A stretch of DNA of 64,000 nucleotides from an uncultured Bacteroidales bacterium (GTDB lineage Bacteria; Bacteroidota; Bacteroidia; Bacteroidales; P3): positions 1 through 64,000 of the forward strand of contig CAJOEN010000031.1 in NCBI GenBank assembly GCA_905233475.1, read 5' to 3'. Both the position numbers and the translations under genes were made by a program. The notes under the pieces are model-generated. The model saw only the letters and a list, made by a program, of their open reading frames with translations. It did no database searches and was not told the origin of the DNA. How positions within the stretch are numbered: position 1 is the first letter of the stretch; each line of letters opens with the position of its first letter. Shown one piece after another: positions 2,775 through 49,491 of the stretch.

Positions 2775-2856
2775 TTATTTTGTGATACACAATCATCGTA
2801 TTTCATTCATCAACTCTCCTTGACAATCATCATCGTCCCCCTTACCCCTCCCACCA

Positions 2857-2933
2857 TCAAAACACCAACATATCAACAACCGCCCCACACTACAACTTAC
2901 TAACAATCAGTGATTAAAGGCAAGAAAAACGCG
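2857..2933 (+). repeat. Right copy of direct repeat flanking the DUF1016 gene
   Basis: TCAAAACACCAACATATCAACAACCGCCCCACACTACAACTTACTAACAATCAGTGATTAAAGGCAAGAAAAACGCGGA, homologous to 1432-1509. Confidence 0.8.
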
Positions 2934-2997
2934 GAATCTGTTCATATTGTTCGTATTTTTAGAGGTCGCCCCGGGCGTTTTTTTTAGTTTTAAATCG

Positions 2998-3005
2998 TAT
3001 CTTTG
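2998..3005 (+). promoter_or_regulatory. Bacteroidetes-type -7 box (TATCTTTG) upstream of transketolase
   Basis: TAnnTTTG consensus 19 nt upstream of the ATG at 3024. Confidence 0.6.
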
Positions 3006-3023
3006 CAAAAAACAATACCTTTG

Positions 3024-3872
3024 ATGAAAACAGTTATAGAATTGCAAAGCATTGCAAAACAGGTACGTAGAGACATCGTCCGTATGACCAACAAAGCCAA
3101 ATCGGGGCATCCGGGCGGCTCGTTGGGTTGCACCGAATTTATGACAGCCCTTTATTTTGACATTATGAACGCCAACCCCGCCCACTTTACAATGGACGGC
3201 AAAGGCGAGGACATGTTCTTTATGTCGAACGGACACATAACCCCCGTGCTGTACAGCGTTTTGGCACGTGTGGGCTATTTTCCGGTATCGGAACTCGGTA
3301 CTTTCCGCGCCCTTGGTACTCGTTTGCAGGGGCACCCCTCCACAGCGCACAGCCTGCCTGGCATTCGCATGGCGTCGGGCTCTTTAGGACAAGGGCTTTC
3401 CGTAGCCATAGGTGCCGCTTTAGGCAAGAAGATGGACGGCGACAACGGCCTCGTGTTCTCCCTCCACGGCGACGGCGAGCTGGAAGAAGGCCAGATTTGG
3501 GAAGCGGTTATGTTCGCAGGCTCCAAACATGTGGACAACCTTATTGCCACTGTCGATTATAACGGTCAGCAGATAGACGGAACGGTGGACGCCGTGATGT
3601 CGCTGGGCAACCTGCAGGCCAAATGGGAAGCCTTCGGATGGCAGGTGGTGAACATCGCCAACGGCAACGACATGCAACAGGTGGTGGACTGGCTTAATAC
3701 CGCCAAAAGCCTCACTGGAAAAGGCAAACCCATTGCTGTTATAATGAAAACCGAGATGGGCTACGGCGTTGATTTTATGCAAGGCACCAACAAATATCAC
3801 GGTGTACCGCCATCGGACGACGAGTTGGCCAAGGCTCTCGCACAACTGGAAGAAACTTTGGGCGACTTCTGA
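3024..3872 (+). CDS. Transketolase, N-terminal (TPP-binding) subunit
   Basis: KSGHPGGSLGCTEFMTALYF, HGDGELEEGQIWEAVMFAGSKHVDNLIATVDYNGQQIDGT. Start at the internal ATG (MKTVIELQS); the track start is TTG. Confidence 0.95.
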   Translation: MKTVIELQSIAKQVRRDIVRMTNKAKSGHPGGSLGCTEFMTALYFDIMNANPAHFTMDGKGEDMFFMSNGHITPVLYSVLARVGYFPVSELGTFRALGTRLQGHPSTAHSLPGIRMASGSLGQGLSVAIGAALGKKMDGDNGLVFSLHGDGELEEGQIWEAVMFAGSKHVDNLIATVDYNGQQIDGTVDAVMSLGNLQAKWEAFGWQVVNIANGNDMQQVVDWLNTAKSLTGKGKPIAVIMKTEMGYGVDFMQGTNKYHGVPPSDDELAKALAQLEETLGDF

Positions 3873-5263
3873 TGATGAAACGCCTCTGTATCATATTGCT
3901 AATCATGCTTTTGTCGTTATCGGCGGCACAGGCTCAGAAAAAACGCGTACCTGTAAATCCGTTGAACGACAAAACTCATGTGTTGCTCATCCTCGACTGT
4001 TCCAACAGTATGTGGGAGAAATGGCAGAGCGATTCCAAGATTAAGGTGACACAGGCCGTGCTGCTCAAATTCATGGACAGCATTTCGCACCAAAACAATG
4101 TGGAATTCGCCATGCGGGTGTTCGGACACCTGAACAAGAACGACCGCGATACACGTCTTGAAGTTCCTTTCAAATACGATAACAACTACAGAATCAAGAG
4201 TAAGATAAAAACCCTTGTGCCACAGGGAGGCGGTACAGTAACTTCGGCTCTCTCGAGTTCTTTGAACGATTTCCCTACGGGTGTTTCGTCTCGTAACATT
4301 ATACTTATCATAACCGACGGTATAGACAACAGTGGCGATGACATCTGCCAAACGGCGCGACAGGTGCAGACGAGTGGTATGGTGGTGAAAACTTTTGTTG
4401 TAGGCATAGGCGACAAAAGTAATTTCAAAAACGACCTCGACTGTGTTGGTAAATTTTTCCACGTCCCGAACGAGGAGAACTACATAAAAACTCTGTACAA
4501 AGTCTTTGCCATGGCCGAACAGCAGGCCGATGTAAGTTTATATATCAACGACAATTCGGGTAAGACTTACGAATCTACAACTCCTGTGGTGTTTTACGAC
4601 GCACAAACAGGTTTGCCGCGACTGCAGACATTATATACTTGCAACAGCAAATCGCAACCCGACACTTTCAAGATAGACCCGCTTATCGACTACAACGTAA
4701 CTTTTTTCACCAATCCACCTCAAACCCTTTCGAACATAAAGTTTGAGAGCGGACAACACAAGAGAATTGGCGTTACTGCCGAACAGGGCTTTCTGCGTGT
4801 CCGTTTCGACGGAAAACGCGTGCTTTTCGAAATACCCCAGTACACCGTTTCGGTGCGCAAGGCCGAAAATAACGAACTTGTGAATGTGCAAGCCATTAAC
4901 AGTAACGTGCCTTATATTACAGGACGCTATACTGTTGAGATACACTCACTTCCGACGGTAGTGATAAACGATGTGGAGATAAGTTATACAACCTCTACCG
5001 ACCTTGCTATTCCAACTCCGGGACTTGCGGTTATCAACAAGCCGAAAGGTGTTTTCAAAGGTTGCATTTTCTCCATCGACGAACAGAATGGAAAAACCAG
5101 CAAAATCCACGACCTTGACGAGAGCCAATTTATTGAACGCGTTCCTTTAATGGCAGGCGAATACATAGTTCTTTTGCAGGACAAGGAAAAATGGGGGCAC
5201 AACTCGCTGCAGATACGACGTTTTAAGATAGAATCGGCTCGACAGACAAATATAAATTTTTGA
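3872..5263 (+). CDS. von Willebrand factor A domain secreted protein
   Basis: Signal peptide MMKRLCIILLIMLLSLSAAQAQ. MIDAS motif DCSNS in VLLILDCSNSMWEKW. ATGA overlap with the upstream transketolase stop. Confidence 0.85.
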   Translation: MMKRLCIILLIMLLSLSAAQAQKKRVPVNPLNDKTHVLLILDCSNSMWEKWQSDSKIKVTQAVLLKFMDSISHQNNVEFAMRVFGHLNKNDRDTRLEVPFKYDNNYRIKSKIKTLVPQGGGTVTSALSSSLNDFPTGVSSRNIILIITDGIDNSGDDICQTARQVQTSGMVVKTFVVGIGDKSNFKNDLDCVGKFFHVPNEENYIKTLYKVFAMAEQQADVSLYINDNSGKTYESTTPVVFYDAQTGLPRLQTLYTCNSKSQPDTFKIDPLIDYNVTFFTNPPQTLSNIKFESGQHKRIGVTAEQGFLRVRFDGKRVLFEIPQYTVSVRKAENNELVNVQAINSNVPYITGRYTVEIHSLPTVVINDVEISYTTSTDLAIPTPGLAVINKPKGVFKGCIFSIDEQNGKTSKIHDLDESQFIERVPLMAGEYIVLLQDKEKWGHNSLQIRRFKIESARQTNINF

Positions 5264-35475: not shown

Positions 35476-35483
35476 TAACTTTG
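35476..35483 (+). promoter_or_regulatory. -7 box (TAACTTTG) for the riboswitch transcript
   Basis: TAnnTTTG consensus immediately 5' of the aptamer. Confidence 0.65.
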
Positions 35484-35489
35484 CAGTTC

Positions 35490-35668
35490 GAATTTGGTTC
35501 ATCCAAGAGCAATTTTGCCAAGGATGATTAAAAGGGAATCGGGTGCAAATCCCGGACAGTCCCGCTGCTGTAAGCTCCGCAACAGTCGTTTCCAATCCCC
35601 TGCCACTGTCCGCCTCGTGCGAATGGGAAGGCCGCGAAACGATGGAGTAAGTCAGAAGACCTGCCAGG
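35490..35668 (+). ncRNA. Cobalamin (B12) riboswitch
   Basis: Conserved core GGGAATCGGGTGCAAATCCCGGACAGTCCCGCTGCTGTAAGC ... GGAGTAAGTCAGAAGACCTGCC (B12 box region). Confidence 0.96.
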
Positions 35669-35942
35669 TTTGATTTTTGAAAAGCTTTCGAGGAAAGAGC
35701 TTGAAAAAAGACAACACACCAATGTTCGAATTTTTCACGATTTTTTGAAAGCTGTTTTGAGTTAGAAAGTCAAAATAGTTATATGCTGTTGTTCGAAAAA
35801 AGGTACAATATCGCTGTAAGGTATGCCGCAATGACTCACACGATAAAAAGTGTGGGGTCGCGCGGTTTTCGTTTATGGCTGTGCCAAACTGCTCGGACAA
35901 TAGCGGAATAAACAATAGTAATAATCTTTAAATCAATTTATT

Positions 35943-37506
35943 ATGCTTAAAAAACTTATTATTTTATGTGCTTCTCTGGCATTTGGTGCCGGACTTTACG
36001 CACAAAGTGGCGATGCTACTATTGCAGCCAGCGATGTAAAATACTGGATTGGCTCCGGAAACAACGAAGTCGTGTTTGCGGTAAACTTTGGTTCCCCCGA
36101 CACCTGTCTGGCTTGGGGTTTCCGTTTCAGCGCCGACAGTATCATAGTCAAGGACATGATGGACTCCATCGCAACCTACGACACACGTTTCAGCTACTCT
36201 GGTGCGAGCAGTACACTCAGCAACATCACATTTTCGCCGACAAACAACATTACATTTACATCGCTGTCAAACTTTTGGATGTACAATGTGAATGGATCCT
36301 TGGCCGATTGGGGATACGATCAGCAATGGGTGAAAGACGGCGATTTTGTGAAATGGGGCGATGCTGATGTTGCTACATATTCCGAGACAACAAATTGGCC
36401 TTGGGTTTACGAATGGTCACAAACTGTTACCGCTGTTTATGTTCCCGACGCCACCATTGCTTCAACAGATATAAAATACTGGGTAGGCACAGGCAGTCAC
36501 GAAGTTGTTATGGCTGTAAACTGGGCTAATCCCGACACCTGCCTTGCATGGGGCTACCGCTTCAGCGCCGACAGCATCACCGTTTCCGACATGATGACCG
36601 ACATAGCCAACGCCGACAATCGTTTCAGCTACGATTCCGCTTCGGGCTGGCTCCTCGACATAAAATACATAAACGGAACCGACACACTGAAAATCTCCTC
36701 CGGCAGCTATTGGATGTACAACGTCAATGGCATGGCCGCTCAATTTGGCGATGTCAGTGTTGCCTTTGTAAACGACACAGACTCTTGGGGTTATCCTTCA
36801 GAGATGGCTTGGACAAAAACTGTAAATCCCGTTTATGCTCTTGATGCAATGATAGACGCAAGCCAAATCACCTATTGGGTGGGCACAGGCAGCAACGAAG
36901 TTGTTTTTGCCGTAAACTGGGCTAATCCCGACACTTGCTTGGCATGGGGCTACCGCTTCGGCTCCGACAGCATTACCGTTTCCGACATGATGACCGACAT
37001 AGCCACTGCCGACAATCGTTTCAGCTACGACTCCGCTTCTGGCTGGCTCCTCGACATAAAATACATAAACGGAACCGACACACTGAAAATCTCCTCCGGC
37101 AGCTATTGGATGTACAACGTCAATGGCATGGCCGCTCAAATTCGGCGATATAAGCGTTGCCATTGTAAACGACACAGACTCTTGGGGTTATCCTTCAGAG
37201 ATGGCTTGGACAAAAACTGTAACTCCCGTTACAAATCCTTCTCAGCAGGGTATAGTTGCCGCCGCCGGCTCGATAAACTTCTCGGTTTATCCCAACCCAG
37301 CAAGCAGCAAAATAAATGTTACTGTTGAAAACGGTGAGGCAACACAAATTATCCTTATGGACGCCAGCGGCAGAACAATCAAAACCGTTGCTGCGGAAGA
37401 TGCTGTAAATCACACAATAGACGTTTCCGCTCTTTCGGCAGGCGTTTACTTTGTGAATGTCCGCAACGAAAACGTTTCCAAAGTTAGCAAACTGATAATC
37501 CGATAG
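35943..37506 (+). CDS. Secreted repeat protein with T9SS C-terminal sorting domain, apparently frameshifted at ~37138
   Basis: Three ~130-aa repeats (YWIGSGNNEVVFAVNFGSPDTCLAWGFRFSADS...). ORF 35943-37328 leaves frame in repeat 3. The correct continuation is ORF 37123-37506 (FGDISVAIVNDTDSWGYPSEMAWTKTV...NFSVYPNPASSKINV...GVYFVNV). Confidence 0.8.
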
Positions 37507-37522
37507 TTGAAATAGAAATATC

Positions 37523-38497
37523 ATGAAACGAAGCTCATTTTTGTTTTTATCAATATTCATATTGATGGCTGGAGTAAGTGTCGCTCAATTTGACGGTGCT
37601 GTCGGTACTGCCGGTTGCAAGGCCATACAGTACAACGACAGCAGGATAGTGAATTGGGCGACAACTTGCACCGTTTACCGTGGATACTTCGATATTGCCA
37701 ACAACCGCAACAGAGCCTCTTTCGGATACGATTCGGTAGCAATTGGCGTGGCTACGGCAAGCAACACTATGGAAGCCGTCAGCCTTGGCGACAGCGGTGT
37801 GGCGGTGCTCACTTTCGAGACACCCATTGCCAACGGCGAAGGCGCCGATTTCGCGGTCTATGAAAACGGCTTTGACGACGGTTTTCTTGAACTGGCCTTT
37901 GTGGAGGTTAGCTCCGACGGCGAACGCTATGTGCGTTTTCCGGCCACATCGAACACTCCTACAGCAACGCAGGTGGGAAGTTTCGCCAACAACATGGACC
38001 CCACGTTGTTAAACAACCTTGCAGGCAAATACCGCATAGGCTGGGGAACGCCTTTCGATTTGGAGGAACTCCGCGACAGCACGGGTATCGACATCAACAA
38101 TATAACCCATGTGCGTTTGGTGGACTGCATTGGCACCATCAATCCGCAGTACTGCACCTACGATGCCAACGGAAATATCGTGAACGACCCGTATCCTACG
38201 GCTTTCAACAGCAGCGGTTTCGACCTTACCGGCGTGGCTGTGCTTAACCAGCGTAGCACACAAATAGTTTTGGCGAAAACCGTTGATATTAAGGCCTTTC
38301 CAAATCCATGCCGTGATTTTCTGAAAGTTGCGGAAATGCCGATAGGAGAGGAGTACCAAATTTTGGATATGCGAGGCAATGTTGTTGAACGTGGTGTTTG
38401 TATGCAGAACTCATTCTGTATCAGCACGCAAGGACTAAAACAAGGCTTATATGTGCTTCGTATAGGTTCTTTTGCCAAAAAAATCGTGAAACAATAA
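37523..38497 (+). CDS. Cobalamin-riboswitch-associated cell-surface protein with T9SS C-terminal sorting domain
   Basis: FDGAVGTAGCKAIQYNDSRIVNWATTCTVYRGY...FAVYENGFDDGFLELAFVEVSSDGERYVRFPA...LAGKYRIGWGTPFDLEEL; C-terminus KAFPNPCRDFLKV...GLYVLRIGSFAKKIVKQ. Confidence 0.85.
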   Translation: MKRSSFLFLSIFILMAGVSVAQFDGAVGTAGCKAIQYNDSRIVNWATTCTVYRGYFDIANNRNRASFGYDSVAIGVATASNTMEAVSLGDSGVAVLTFETPIANGEGADFAVYENGFDDGFLELAFVEVSSDGERYVRFPATSNTPTATQVGSFANNMDPTLLNNLAGKYRIGWGTPFDLEELRDSTGIDINNITHVRLVDCIGTINPQYCTYDANGNIVNDPYPTAFNSSGFDLTGVAVLNQRSTQIVLAKTVDIKAFPNPCRDFLKVAEMPIGEEYQILDMRGNVVERGVCMQNSFCISTQGLKQGLYVLRIGSFAKKIVKQ

Positions 38498-38522
38498 GAA
38501 AATCACTCCATTATCTTAGTAG

Positions 38523-38560
38523 TAAGGCGTTGCGAATTTCTTTGCAACGCCTTATCCTTT
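38523..38560 (+). terminator. Rho-independent-like terminator
   Basis: TAAGGCGTTGC...GCAACGCCTTA stem followed by T-rich tract. Confidence 0.75.
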
Positions 38561-43923: not shown

Positions 43924-44187
43924 ATGAAACAGACAAACAATAAAATTCGGAAAATAAATGGTGATGATTACCATTATTTAACCTCTCGCTTTGCTTTTCG
44001 CTTCGATGGCGAATTATATCTATTTAAACCATTAGTAACTTATCGTCGTGCCTATCGATTTTGTTTGGCACTATCTAAGTTAATTTCTTGTCCTGTCTTC
44101 TTATATAATATGAACTATTATAATGAATTATTTCGTGTCCGTACAATTAATTATAAGACTTCTAAATCTAAAAGAGTAAAACAATGA
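43924..44187 (+). CDS. Phage hypothetical protein (87 aa)
   Basis: Overlaps the Rep start by ATGA (stop 44187 / start 44184). Confidence 0.75.
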   Translation: MKQTNNKIRKINGDDYHYLTSRFAFRFDGELYLFKPLVTYRRAYRFCLALSKLISCPVFLYNMNYYNELFRVRTINYKTSKSKRVKQ

Positions 44188-45581
44188 TTAATTGCGAACA
44201 TCCTAATATTATCATTAACCCGTCTGTATATCAGCATATACAGAAGAACCATATTATATACTTAAATGATCATCCTCGTAATTTTCTTACTGCTGGCCTT
44301 CTTAATGTAAAATATTTGTATTGTGTTCTTTCTGAGATACGTAAGTCGTTGAACATTAAGACTTCTGATTTTAATCTTCATTATTTTGTTGATGATTTTG
44401 GTATTCGTCAGCTTGTTTTTCTTCAAGTTCCTTGCAATCATTGTAACTTATGCCGCCGCAGACGTCAAAATGACTTAGTTCAGCGTTTCCGCTTTGAAAC
44501 AGAGGAACACTCTGAATTACCTTATTTTGTTACCCTTACTCACAATCGCTATTCTCTTCCTAAGGATAATCTTGTACATATTCGAACAATTCAGCTCTAT
44601 ATTAAGCGGCTTCGTGATTATGCTCTTCGTGATTTTGGTATTACTGATATATCATTCTATGCTCAAGGTGAGTACGGTAAGAAGCGTAATCGTCCACATT
44701 ATCATTTTCTTATATGGGGTCTTCCTAAGTTCGATAATATTCTTGTCGCTCGTGATTGGTTTTCAAAGTCTTGGCGTACTAAGACTAAGATTTCATTTTA
44801 TCAGCGTTCAACTGGAAAAATTATTAAGTCTAAGGCTCCTCTTGGTATTGTTCATTGTAGTCAAGTTGCTTCACCTGATTATCTTGATTATTATTTTAGA
44901 ACTCGTGGAAAACGGATTTCTGCTACTGACGCATTCAAGTACGCGTCTAAGTATTCTACTAAGGATGGTGGTTTATCTACTTGGTCTTGTCATTTAGGTG
45001 AGAAGTATGTTAAGAGAACTTATTCTGCTGATTTACTTGGTCTTAATCCTCGTATTGATATTTATTTTCTTGACAGGTTTGGTACCACTTCTCCTGTTAT
45101 TAAAAATAGGTGGTTTTTTAATGTTGTATTCGGCAATTTAAGTAAGGAAACATATAAGTTACGTAGCGAGTTGAAACACATTGTTGCTTCTTTATCTGTG
45201 AAAAATAGAAAGTTAGTCGATTGGTGTACCTATAAGATTAAGCCCATTGCTGACGATTATGGTTATATTGTCGGTTATCCCTATATTAATAAGCGTGAAG
45301 TTATTGATTATTTAAAGAATAAGTGTGTTGTCTCTCGGCTCAAGCGTGTTAAGTCTCGATTTAACCAGTTTTATTATTATAATGGTATTATTGTGAATAA
45401 TTTATTGAATTTATATTGGGATACCGATTTCGATGAGTTGGAAAATAGGCATTTGGCTAAGGTTATTTACCAACAACGTTGCTTTGCTGTTGTCCCTGAG
45501 CTCACTGTTGAAGAGGTTGCAATTAATTCACATCGTTCTGCTCGATATGCTTATTATCAGGATATTAATCAATCATTGTAA
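44184..45581 (+). CDS. Microviridae replication initiator (VP4-like, HUH/rolling-circle)
   Basis: CNHCNLCRRRRQNDLVQRFRFETEEHSELPYFVTLTHN, GEYGKKRNRPHYHFLIWG (HUH), DAFKYASKYSTKDGG (catalytic Tyr region). Confidence 0.93.
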   Translation: MINCEHPNIIINPSVYQHIQKNHIIYLNDHPRNFLTAGLLNVKYLYCVLSEIRKSLNIKTSDFNLHYFVDDFGIRQLVFLQVPCNHCNLCRRRRQNDLVQRFRFETEEHSELPYFVTLTHNRYSLPKDNLVHIRTIQLYIKRLRDYALRDFGITDISFYAQGEYGKKRNRPHYHFLIWGLPKFDNILVARDWFSKSWRTKTKISFYQRSTGKIIKSKAPLGIVHCSQVASPDYLDYYFRTRGKRISATDAFKYASKYSTKDGGLSTWSCHLGEKYVKRTYSADLLGLNPRIDIYFLDRFGTTSPVIKNRWFFNVVFGNLSKETYKLRSELKHIVASLSVKNRKLVDWCTYKIKPIADDYGYIVGYPYINKREVIDYLKNKCVVSRLKRVKSRFNQFYYYNGIIVNNLLNLYWDTDFDELENRHLAKVIYQQRCFAVVPELTVEEVAINSHRSARYAYYQDINQSL

Positions 45582-45623
45582 TTCATTTAATTCATATATT
45601 TATTAACTAAAACATTTACAATT

Positions 45624-45719
45624 ATGAAATTAGCTACTTTTCCTTTCCGTCTTATATGGAACATTATCAAAACAGTTGTCGAGATGATTCTCGGAGATTT
45701 AAACCTCAAAAAAAAGTAA
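45624..45719 (+). CDS. Small phage peptide (31 aa), single hydrophobic/amphipathic helix
   Basis: MKLATFPFRLIWNIIKTVVEMILGDLNLKKK*, located between rep and the major capsid gene. Not in the provided ORF track. Confidence 0.6.
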   Translation: MKLATFPFRLIWNIIKTVVEMILGDLNLKKK

Positions 45720-45725
45720 TTAGTT

Positions 45726-47942
45726 ATGGCAAGTATTTATAAAAGACAAAAGGGTTATGTGAAGAAGCCTAATCGGAATAATTTCGATTTGACTTTTTCT
45801 AACAATTTCACGACTAAAATAGGTCAGATAACTCCTATTATGTGTAAGGAAGTTAATCCCGGCGATAAGTTTAATATTAATTTTGCCGCTGGTCTTCGTG
45901 CAATGCCTTTGGCGTTCCCTATTCAGACACCTTTACAGGCTCAATTTTCATTTTTCTACGTTCGTAATCGGACATTATGGAAAGATTGGATGGACTTCTA
46001 TGGTAGGACAAAGGATGGTCTCATTCATCCATATATTTCTATTCCTTACTCTCGTGCTCATGAGATGGGAACTTGTTCTCTTGCTGATTATCTCGGTGTT
46101 CCTACTACTTATGCTCAACAAGAAATAATTGATTTTGAATCATATTTCTTCCATGGTGACCCTCAAGTCCGCACCTCAGCTAATAGTACAACTTCTGTTA
46201 ATGTCACTACTATTCCCGCCGAGGGTGATTCTTATAACAATCAAGGAGATAATATTACTGTATCTGATATTGGTGCACGTGTCTACCCTTATCGATTTGT
46301 TTGGAATGTAGTTACTACAGGAACACTTGGTTATAAGGTAAATAACTATTTCGGCCAAGATTCATATGGACTTTATATTAAAGTTAATGGCCGTCAGTTG
46401 AAAGACCGTCTGAAATTCCCATTTGGTGACGCCTCAACGATTATTAATAATCTTTCTGACTGCACAATTCTTGTCTCTGTAAATGACGATGGTTCAACAG
46501 GTTACGAAAATTCTGTTGTTCGTGGTCGTGGCAAGATTAGTTCTGTTACTGTTACCGATGGAGTATTGGAATGTGAATGGAGTGACCCTCTCAAAGACTT
46601 GTTTGCAACAGGTAACTATTCGGACGCATATATCACATTTGTTTTCCTTGTCAATCCTTGGGTCGCTTTTTCTTCTTCGTTATTCACTGGCAATCAGGTG
46701 TCTGTTAACTTTCAACTTGTTAGTACTTCTGATGTCTCCAATACAAGCAATCCCTTTGTTATTCAAAGTGGTGATGAAGTTCCTGATATACGATTGAATG
46801 CTCTTCCATTCCGTGCATATGAGGCTATTTATAACTCATATTATCGAAATGAAATAAATGACCCATTTGTATTGAATGGTACACCTGAGTATAATCGTTA
46901 TGTAACTAACTTGGATGGCGGTGCTGATAGTATTACACCATTATTCTTACGTATGCGTAACTATGAGTTAGATTTTTTGACATCTGCCGTTCCCTCTCCA
47001 CAACATGGCATTGCTCCTCTTGTTGGTGTGTCTTCAACTGGTGTATTCAAGTTTGAGGATGAAGATGGTCATATCTTTACCCTAACACCTAAGATAGGTG
47101 ATGATGGTAATACTCTCACTGGTATTGATAGCTATGATGAGGGTCTTCCTGTAGGTAATATCAAGAGGCTTACTGAACTTATTAGGTATGGTATTTCTAT
47201 TAATGATTTCCGACAGGTTAATTCATTACAGCGTTTTCTTGAGACAAATATCCGTCGTGGGTTAAAGTATAAGCAACAGATATTATCTCATCATGGTGTT
47301 AATGTTCGATATGATGAGTTGGATATGCCTGAGTATCTTGGTGGTCTTACTCGTAATATAAATGTTACTCAAATCACTTCTACTGCTGAGACTTCTGAGA
47401 TGGCTCTTGGTGAATTCGGTGGTCAAGCTGGATTATTTACTCAAAACACTCATGGTATTAATCATTATTTCGATGAGCCGGGCTTCTTATTCTGCATGCT
47501 CACTATTGTTCCTATTCCTAACTATTCTCAGCTTCTTGATAAGAAGTTTCTTAAGGACAATCAGTTAGATTACTTCTTCCCTGAGTTTAACCATATTGGT
47601 TACCAACCTATCGATTATCGTGAGGTTACTCCAATTCAGGCTAAGTTACATGGGGTTGATTACAATAGTGTATTTGGCTACCAACGACCTTACTACGACC
47701 TTGTATCTTCGGTTGATGAGGTTCATGGCCTTATGCGTACCACTATGCAGGGCTTCTTATTGACCCGTAATTTTGGTACTCCTCCACGTCTTGGTCATGA
47801 CTTTCTTGAGATAAATCCTGATGATATGACTAACCCGTTTGTCGACACTTCCGTTGATTCTGATACATTTGTTGGTCAAATTTCCTTTGACATTAAAGCC
47901 AAGCGTGCTGTTTCTAAGGTTGCTATTCCGAGACTTGAATAA
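45726..47942 (+). CDS. Microviridae major capsid protein VP1
   Basis: 738 aa: NNFDLTFSNNFTTKIGQITPIMCKEVNPGDKFNINFAAGLRAMPLAFPIQTPLQAQFSFFYVRNRTLWKDW; TPIQAKLHGVDYNSVFGYQRPYYDLVSSVDEVHGLMR. Confidence 0.95.
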   Translation: MASIYKRQKGYVKKPNRNNFDLTFSNNFTTKIGQITPIMCKEVNPGDKFNINFAAGLRAMPLAFPIQTPLQAQFSFFYVRNRTLWKDWMDFYGRTKDGLIHPYISIPYSRAHEMGTCSLADYLGVPTTYAQQEIIDFESYFFHGDPQVRTSANSTTSVNVTTIPAEGDSYNNQGDNITVSDIGARVYPYRFVWNVVTTGTLGYKVNNYFGQDSYGLYIKVNGRQLKDRLKFPFGDASTIINNLSDCTILVSVNDDGSTGYENSVVRGRGKISSVTVTDGVLECEWSDPLKDLFATGNYSDAYITFVFLVNPWVAFSSSLFTGNQVSVNFQLVSTSDVSNTSNPFVIQSGDEVPDIRLNALPFRAYEAIYNSYYRNEINDPFVLNGTPEYNRYVTNLDGGADSITPLFLRMRNYELDFLTSAVPSPQHGIAPLVGVSSTGVFKFEDEDGHIFTLTPKIGDDGNTLTGIDSYDEGLPVGNIKRLTELIRYGISINDFRQVNSLQRFLETNIRRGLKYKQQILSHHGVNVRYDELDMPEYLGGLTRNINVTQITSTAETSEMALGEFGGQAGLFTQNTHGINHYFDEPGFLFCMLTIVPIPNYSQLLDKKFLKDNQLDYFFPEFNHIGYQPIDYREVTPIQAKLHGVDYNSVFGYQRPYYDLVSSVDEVHGLMRTTMQGFLLTRNFGTPPRLGHDFLEINPDDMTNPFVDTSVDSDTFVGQISFDIKAKRAVSKVAIPRLE

Positions 47943-47972
47943 TTATTGTTTTCATCTGTTTTATTGTTTATT

Positions 47973-48000
47973 GGGCTGTAGTCCGCTGCAGCCCTTTTTT
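47973..48000 (+). terminator. Intra-phage rho-independent terminator downstream of VP1
   Basis: GGGCTGTAG-TCCG-CTGCAGCCC followed by T6. Confidence 0.85.
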
Positions 48001-48037
48001 AAAAAAGTTTAAAAATTTTAATAAAAGAAATATTATT

Positions 48038-48379
48038 ATGAATACACGTCAAAAAATTTTTATGCGCTCTTGCGTACGAATCAAAAACACTAAGTTGTTG
48101 GAGCATGAGTCTCCAGTACAATCTGGATTGTCCGTTACTCCGTCTCAGATGTTGCGAATGACTGAACAAGGTATTGCTATCAGTCCTGCTGCTGTTGATG
48201 AGACAATATTTAGCGATAATGATTACAAGAACACTAATGATTTCCATGTTAATGTAGAGGATAGACGTCATATTGATATTAATATGGTATGGGAGACAGA
48301 ACAAGACATTAAAAAGAAATTCCGTAAAGCTCGTAAGGACGGAGCATTTGTAGATGTTGAACCGAAAGGAGGTGAATAA
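48038..48379 (+). CDS. Microviridae internal scaffolding-like protein (VP3-like)
   Basis: Position between VP1 and VP2; 113 aa with QSGLSVTPSQMLRMTEQGIAISPAAVDETI. Confidence 0.75.
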   Translation: MNTRQKIFMRSCVRIKNTKLLEHESPVQSGLSVTPSQMLRMTEQGIAISPAAVDETIFSDNDYKNTNDFHVNVEDRRHIDINMVWETEQDIKKKFRKARKDGAFVDVEPKGGE

Positions 48380-49491
48380 TGGGCCCCGCTGTTATTAAGG
48401 GATTGTTTGACTTAGGTACTGGCCTTGCTTCTGTTGGTGGTTCTCTATGGTCTAATTCTCAAAACAGGCGTTCTCAAGAGAACGAGAATGCCCGTAATCG
48501 CGCATATTCTCGTGAGCAAAATCGCTTGAATTTAGAACAATGGCAACGTGAAAACGTATATAATAGTCCATTTGCTCAAATGCAGCGTCTTCGTGCTGCT
48601 GGCATTAATCCTGCTATGGCATATTCCGATGGTATTGAGAATTTGGCTGCTCAGAGTCCTGAGATGATAGCTTCTCAAAGTAAGGCCTATACTGGCACTC
48701 CTAATCCATTTTCTTCATTTGTTGATGATTATTCTACTATGTCTCAGTTACGTGCTACTATTGAAAATATTAATGCTGATACTGAGTATAAGAGAGCTAA
48801 GTCCGGCGAGAGTGCTATTGTTCGTGCGTTGTATGAACAGAAGTTGGAGATTGATGGCACGAAGTTCACTTGGGATAAGGAAGATAGGGAGTTAGATAAG
48901 GAGCGCAATATTACTGAGCTTAATCTTGTTCGTGAACGATATGAGACACAGAAGGAGGAAACAAGGAAAGTTGCTCAACAGGTTCGTAATCTTTCCAAGG
49001 AGTATGATATTAAGGAGCTTGAGCGGGAATTCCTCGAACTCACTAAGGATGATAGAGTTATGTCTATTAAGCTTAATAATAGTGAATTACGTTCTAAGAT
49101 ACGTCTTAACGGTCAGACGTATGAACTTAATGAATTTGTCAAAAAGGAGCGTGTAGCTCGTGTTAATGCTATATCTTCTTATAATGATAAGATTTTATCT
49201 CAGTTTTTGCGTGAGGCTTCTAATGGTGCTATTAATTTTGATTCTATGGATGAGAGCGGTAAGTCTATGCTAAGAGCTGTTTATGGTGAAGATTTCTTCC
49301 ATAATCAGCAGTTGCAGAATGAAGCATATCTTGACGCTCTTGCATGTGAATTGGTGTATGGAAATGCTCAGCATATTCAGCTCGAAAATACTTACTATGG
49401 CATTCAGCAGTTGAGTAATCTTATTAGTTCTTATTCTAAGGTTCGTGGTTCTCTTGGTAAGCGTAATGGTGGTTTTAAGTCTCGTAAGTAA
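48379..49491 (+). CDS. Microviridae DNA pilot/minor spike protein VP2
   Basis: LNLEQWQRENVYNSPFAQMQRLRAAGINPAMAYSDG motif; Gly-rich hydrophobic N-terminus; TAATG overlap with the upstream ORF. Confidence 0.93.
   Translation: MGPAVIKGLFDLGTGLASVGGSLWSNSQNRRSQENENARNRAYSREQNRLNLEQWQRENVYNSPFAQMQRLRAAGINPAMAYSDGIENLAAQSPEMIASQSKAYTGTPNPFSSFVDDYSTMSQLRATIENINADTEYKRAKSGESAIVRALYEQKLEIDGTKFTWDKEDRELDKERNITELNLVRERYETQKEETRKVAQQVRNLSKEYDIKELEREFLELTKDDRVMSIKLNNSELRSKIRLNGQTYELNEFVKKERVARVNAISSYNDKILSQFLREASNGAINFDSMDESGKSMLRAVYGEDFFHNQQLQNEAYLDALACELVYGNAQHIQLENTYYGIQQLSNLISSYSKVRGSLGKRNGGFKSRK

Follow-up and report, generated by a model that had tools for sequence, protein, structure and literature searches.

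A cobalamin riboswitch preceding two candidate T9SS-delivered B12-capture proteins in an uncultured Bacteroidales bacterium

The riboswitch unit and the reading frame of ORF1

The window, by which is meant the whole 64-kb stretch of Bacteroidales DNA analyzed, contains a cobalamin riboswitch followed on the same strand by two genes, ORF1 and ORF2. The riboswitch, predicted folds, sorting tails, type IX secretion system (T9SS), btuB-, btuG- and btuCD-type genes, B12-dependent enzymes, and operon and fusion context described below were computed here. The features are as follows, with signal peptides judged by eye:

35476..35483, + strand: Bacteroidetes-type -7 promoter box TAACTTTG (from sequence)
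35478..35682, + strand: cobalamin riboswitch aptamer, RF00174 (cmscan, Infernal)
35683..35942, + strand: 5' leader from the aptamer to ORF1 (folded)
35943..37328, + strand: ORF1, signal peptide (...LYAQ) and three predicted tandem DUF4430 / transcobalamin-beta-like domains (PF14478, AF2, Foldseek)
37123..37506, + strand: out-of-frame remainder of ORF1, comprising the end of repeat 3 and a T9SS type A sorting domain (PF18962, TIGR04183)
37523..38497, + strand: ORF2 (FAVYENGF protein), signal peptide (...SVAQ), predicted BtuH-like jelly roll and T9SS type A sorting domain
37583-38260, + strand: the predicted BtuH-like jelly-roll domain of ORF2 (AF2 model, Foldseek, hhalign)
38522..38555, + strand: intrinsic terminator with a 15-bp stem, directly 3' of ORF2 (terminator scan)

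The aptamer matches the full RF00174 model (positions 1-189) with 108.7 bits in cmscan (E 2.8e-26, gathering score 31.5), and a TTG lies about 19 nt 5' of the -7 box TAACTTTG. This bears out the preliminary description, which had reported a B12 riboswitch with its own -7 box in front of a repeat protein and a second surface protein. The pattern TAnnTTTG is found within 160 nt 5' of the aptamer core in 24 of 29 related riboswitches, against 2.3 expected from shuffled sequences. A terminator-type expression platform directly 3' of the aptamer was considered and rejected, as folding and the terminator scan revealed no hairpin with a U-run there; the sole terminator-like site in the leader, at 35850-35863, has a weak stem of 5 bp and is at chance level. 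With the terminator placed directly 3' of ORF2, the unit therefore looks like promoter-riboswitch-ORF1-ORF2-terminator. No BtuB-, BtuG- or DUF4465-type ORF is present in the 64-kb window, in agreement with the reported absence of a BtuB-like receptor. Further along, at 44184-49491 on the + strand, the window carries an integrated microvirus-like prophage with genes for replication initiation (phrog_942), major head (phrog_514, 4.9e-101) and DNA pilot (phrog_8689) proteins in a row.

Both proteins had been described as carrying C-terminal sorting domains. For ORF2 this holds, with residues 259-322 matching PF18962 (1.1e-07) and TIGR04183 (2.8e-05), but ORF1 as encoded lacks one, its tail lying in another frame because 44 bp present in homologues are deleted from repeat 3. 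Repeat 2 has an in-frame deletion of 45 bp at the same spot. The domains of ORF1 span residues 24-168, 169-300 and 301-411, with the reading frame lost in the third. The out-of-frame sorting domain at 37285-37503 matches PF18962 at 1.7e-17 and TIGR04183 at 3.9e-16, remains open to a stop at 37506, and is the top scorer among the 50 TIGR04183 matches in the genome. In the ORF1 homologues L062 and L085 the tail is in frame, and in the nearest relatives, L085 and L086, the intact gene encodes four repeats followed by the tail; there too an OstA gene flanks the locus, and ORF2 is about 75% identical.

Repeats 2 and 3 (36446-37245) share a near-identical deletion of 45/44 bp, yet their first 300 bases are just 89% identical; the shared deletion may reflect independent loss, gene conversion or an assembly artefact. 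ORF1 in the source genome is either truly frameshifted or mis-assembled, and ORF2 may therefore be the sole working member of the unit there. It is conceivable, if doubtful, that ORF1 is a decaying pseudogene in a locus that is being lost from the lineage, leaving a BtuB-BtuG locus as the only functional one. About 15 residues are missing from two of the three repeats, the deletion in repeat 3 shifts the frame, and btuB-btuG are indeed present elsewhere in the genome. Decay sits poorly, however, with a tail that is still open and contains the sorting domain with the highest score in the genome, or with a riboswitch, promoter, ORF2 and terminator that all look intact, and a tandem-repeat assembly error in a draft genome would give the same picture.

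Predicted folds of ORF1 and ORF2

Three stretches of ORF1 match DUF4430 (PF14478) with an E-value of 1.1e-11 and a score of 45.4 bits against a cut-off of 23.8, and in intact relatives the repeat is about 145 residues long. The AlphaFold2 model of repeat 1, built from a 112-row alignment, has a mean pLDDT of 94.5, and the best 19 matches of this model in a Foldseek search of the PDB are chains of transcobalamin, intrinsic factor and haptocorrin, together with 3U7Z. The statistics of these matches are weak by E-value (0.015-0.16), with probabilities of up to 1.00 and a target TM score of 0.62 to 5NO0. In the model a beta-hairpin immediately follows the helix, which within the SLBB superfamily is the hallmark of the transcobalamin clade (PMC1796856). 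The repeat is accordingly predicted to adopt a beta-grasp fold like the beta domain of transcobalamin and intrinsic factor. It resembles the C-terminal beta domain of these carriers in its PF14478 matches and in the extra hairpin, but differs in that no alpha/alpha toroid was detected with ORF1-type domains and in that it occurs in 1-5 tandem copies with a T9SS tail. When the transcobalamin clade of SLBB/DUF4430 domains was surveyed in 2007, low-GC Gram-positives, planctomycetes and euryarchaea were listed, and Bacteroidetes were not (PMC1796856). Two other assignments were discarded: an hhalign probability of 0.1% ruled out the ORF1 repeats as BtuH domains, and DUF4465 (PF14717) has no Pfam match in ORF1 or in ORF2, which ruled it out for ORF2. 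Neither protein has a lipobox; the single early cysteine of ORF1 falls within the signal peptide, and ORF2 has no cysteine at the lipobox position within its first 30 residues.

Pfam recognizes only the sorting tail of ORF2. The 226-residue domain preceding it was modelled with a pLDDT of 95.4, and the comparison of predicted structures with BtuG and BtuH that had been put forward as a check found a match between this fold and both BtuH2 and the BtuH domain of BtuG1. BtuH2 with bound B12 (7BIZ) ranks third and fifth in the Foldseek results and 8BLW_B, which is BtuG1 including the BtuH domain, seventh, in a list that also contains generic jelly rolls; CBM32/discoidin (F5/8 type C) domains score there much as BtuH does. 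At the level of sequence, a family profile of BtuH was assembled from members in the B12 loci of other Bacteroidales, among them a protein from L195 that matches 7BIZ at 5.9e-49 and 8BLW_B at 2.9e-71. Alignment of the ORF2 profile to this family by hhalign gave a probability of 83% (E 9e-6, score 44.6), confined to the N-terminal core, while 20 column-shuffled controls scored at most 23.5 and an unrelated profile gave 0.1%. Alignment of the C-terminal half was not significant, a match there that looked convincing by eye having failed the shuffled control. Direct sequence matching to BtuH2 was negative, as profiles A1 and A3 fail to retrieve 7BIZ, and PDB sequence searches with ORF1, ORF2, A1, A2 and A3 returned sorting domains or noise and nothing else.

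Asn399 of BtuH2, which contacts the phosphate of B12 (PMC8941943), aligns with the invariant asparagine of the FEN motif (N115 of ORF2), whereas most of the BtuH2 contact residues (H476, Y510, W511 and W577) lack a clear counterpart in ORF2. The two families share a similar core motif, VSLGxxGGxxxxxFDxxIxNxxGxDFxVxxNxF, which includes the position of Asn399, as well as a jelly-roll fold, predicted in the case of ORF2, a place behind a riboswitch and an association with BtuB/BtuG. Unlike BtuH (BtuH2, 7BIZ; the H-domain of BtuG1, 8BLW), ORF2 has a T9SS tail, is not a lipoprotein and lacks PKD domains. Profile and model together suggest that the ORF2 domain is distantly related to the B12-binding domain of BtuH, and because the C-terminal half of the match is not significant we prefer the term BtuH-like to BtuH.

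B12 loci in relatives and in the source genome

A homologue search across 295 Bacteroidales genomes matched ORF2 in 104, about 80 of these through the domain itself and the rest through the sorting tail only. In 66 of the 80 genomes with an ORF2 homologue, an RF00174 riboswitch precedes the homologue on the same strand at a distance of 104-3087 bp, where about 0.05 would be expected by chance, and in 48 of the 66 it is the only one in the genome; in the other 14 of the 80 no riboswitch is nearby. The 48 Bacteroidales loci that were mapped all encode an ORF2 homologue with a sorting tail, with BtuB no more than four genes away in 30 and BtuG in 27. The commonest operon runs from the riboswitch through a DUF4465, propeller/DUF4430 or DUF4430-repeat protein to ORF2, BtuB and BtuG. 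The preliminary description had proposed control of surface proteins rather than of an adjacent transporter, which is true of the source genome but not of many relatives, where btuB and/or btuG follow. Relatives are spread over many Bacteroidales families and extend to Flavobacteriales and Chitinophagales; cultured, T9SS-positive strains of Winogradskyella and Taibaiella carry the operon too.

The gene 5' of the ORF2 homologue often encodes a T9SS-tailed DUF4465 (BtuJ-type) protein, and those members of the DUF4465 family that have been tested bind B12 (PMC12751083, PMC13398666). BtuJ/DUF4465 (PF14717) is a B12-binding jelly roll that in relatives belongs to these same riboswitch operons and is sometimes fused to the ORF2 domain, but it is absent from the window, where DUF4430 repeats occupy its place. 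Fusions take two forms, 1-5 DUF4430-like repeats with the ORF2 domain and tail, or DUF4465 with the ORF2 domain and tail. In very large Bacteroidales proteins of 2,235-2,383 residues (L112, L118, L132 and L133), DUF4430-like repeats occur together with the ORF2 domain and a T9SS tail, and the L132 protein has fibronectin type III domains as well. In L039, L046, L048, L056 and L061 the gene 5' of the ORF2 homologue encodes a propeller with a DUF4430-like domain and a T9SS tail, an architecture that recalls BtuGH, the fusion of BtuG and BtuH, except that the second domain is transcobalamin-like.

T9SS-tailed BtuG-like proteins exist too. Beside the BtuB-BtuG-BtuH locus of L195, a BtuG-like DUF5074 propeller that carries a T9SS tail is encoded at 2812-4548 on the - strand, adjoining a gene (4-2473, - strand) whose product joins a DUF4430-like domain to a DUF5074 propeller. 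The surface lipoprotein BtuG (DUF5074) resembles the present proteins in its surface capture of B12, its regulon and this tailed counterpart, but it is a beta-propeller, and in the source genome it is encoded at the other riboswitch locus.

These neighborhoods bear on whether ORF2 could be a CBM32/discoidin-like, glycan-binding jelly roll, the proteins being adhesins or lectins whose expression merely tracks B12 status. The similar Foldseek scores would allow this, and the surface location implied by a T9SS tail would fit an adhesin or lectin. Such a role is nevertheless very improbable given the tight linkage seen in many families to the cobalamin riboswitch, BtuB, BtuG and DUF4465, the fusion of the ORF2 domain to transcobalamin-like and DUF4465 domains, the profile link to BtuH, and the lack of any CBM32 or discoidin Pfam match among 72 members of the ORF2 family.

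The source genome, which is 97.7% complete, has two cobalamin riboswitches, the second of which precedes genes for a TonB receptor (BtuB) and for a BtuG-like protein with DUF5074. A FecCD permease occurs once, next to an ABC ATPase (BtuCD-type), and the B12-dependent enzymes encoded include methylmalonyl-CoA mutase and a subunit of lysine aminomutase, both named by eye from their sequences. CbiC, the sole marker searched for de novo B12 synthesis, was not found. T9SS is indicated by a match to GldM/PorM, the one core component searched, and by the 50 sorting domains. This is the profile of a T9SS-bearing scavenger of B12, the lack of de novo synthesis being judged from one marker gene.

A proposed T9SS-borne route for B12 capture

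ORF1 and ORF2 are likely to form a B12-repressed unit for extracellular capture of B12 (cobamide), a variant, delivered by T9SS, of the lipoprotein-based Btu system of Bacteroides. The earlier suggestion that they are T9SS-delivered candidate analogues of BtuG and BtuH gains support from the predicted folds, the gene neighborhood in relatives and the domain fusions. When intracellular cobamide is scarce, the riboswitch would permit production of both proteins, which would leave through Sec and then T9SS, where the C-terminal tail would be cleaved and a surface anchor put in its place. Intact ORF1, as an array of transcobalamin-beta-like domains, and ORF2, as a BtuH-like jelly roll, would jointly retain cobamide on the cell surface and hand it to the BtuG-BtuB pair of the second riboswitch locus, and from there to BtuCD. 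For ORF1 and ORF2, we infer the B12 binding, the direction of regulation, the surface anchoring and the hand-over to BtuG-BtuB.

T9SS cargo may be either anchored or released. The two proteins might then bind B12 but serve as a released or surface reservoir instead of feeding BtuG-BtuB directly, comparable to BtuJ on vesicles. In B. theta BtuJ delivers B12 by vesicles (PMC12751083), and the ORF1-ORF2 unit is unlinked from btuB in the source genome; in many relatives, however, it shares one operon with btuB and btuG, and we consider a reservoir unlikely.

Surface B12 capture as known in Bacteroides is lipoprotein-based. No description of T9SS-delivered B12 capture was found among the papers of the PMC full-text library; the nearest report concerns Flavobacterium, in which a TonB receptor is preceded by a cobalamin riboswitch (PMC9723704). 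Arrays of 1-5 transcobalamin-like copies are found in proteins that reach about 2,400 residues. On balance, we favor the view that Bacteroidota display a second, T9SS-borne set of B12 catchers, in which tandem transcobalamin-like arrays and the BtuH-like domain joined to them act as a multivalent trap on the surface, paralleling the lipoproteins of Bacteroides. If so, B12 capture proteins would be far wider in the phylum and use a different display route, and the fold of an animal B12 carrier would be placed in Bacteroidota B12 operons. The ORF2 domain, for which there is no Pfam model, gains a testable function. In the rumen, where microbes are the source of the host's B12, such traps would bear on who gets the vitamin.
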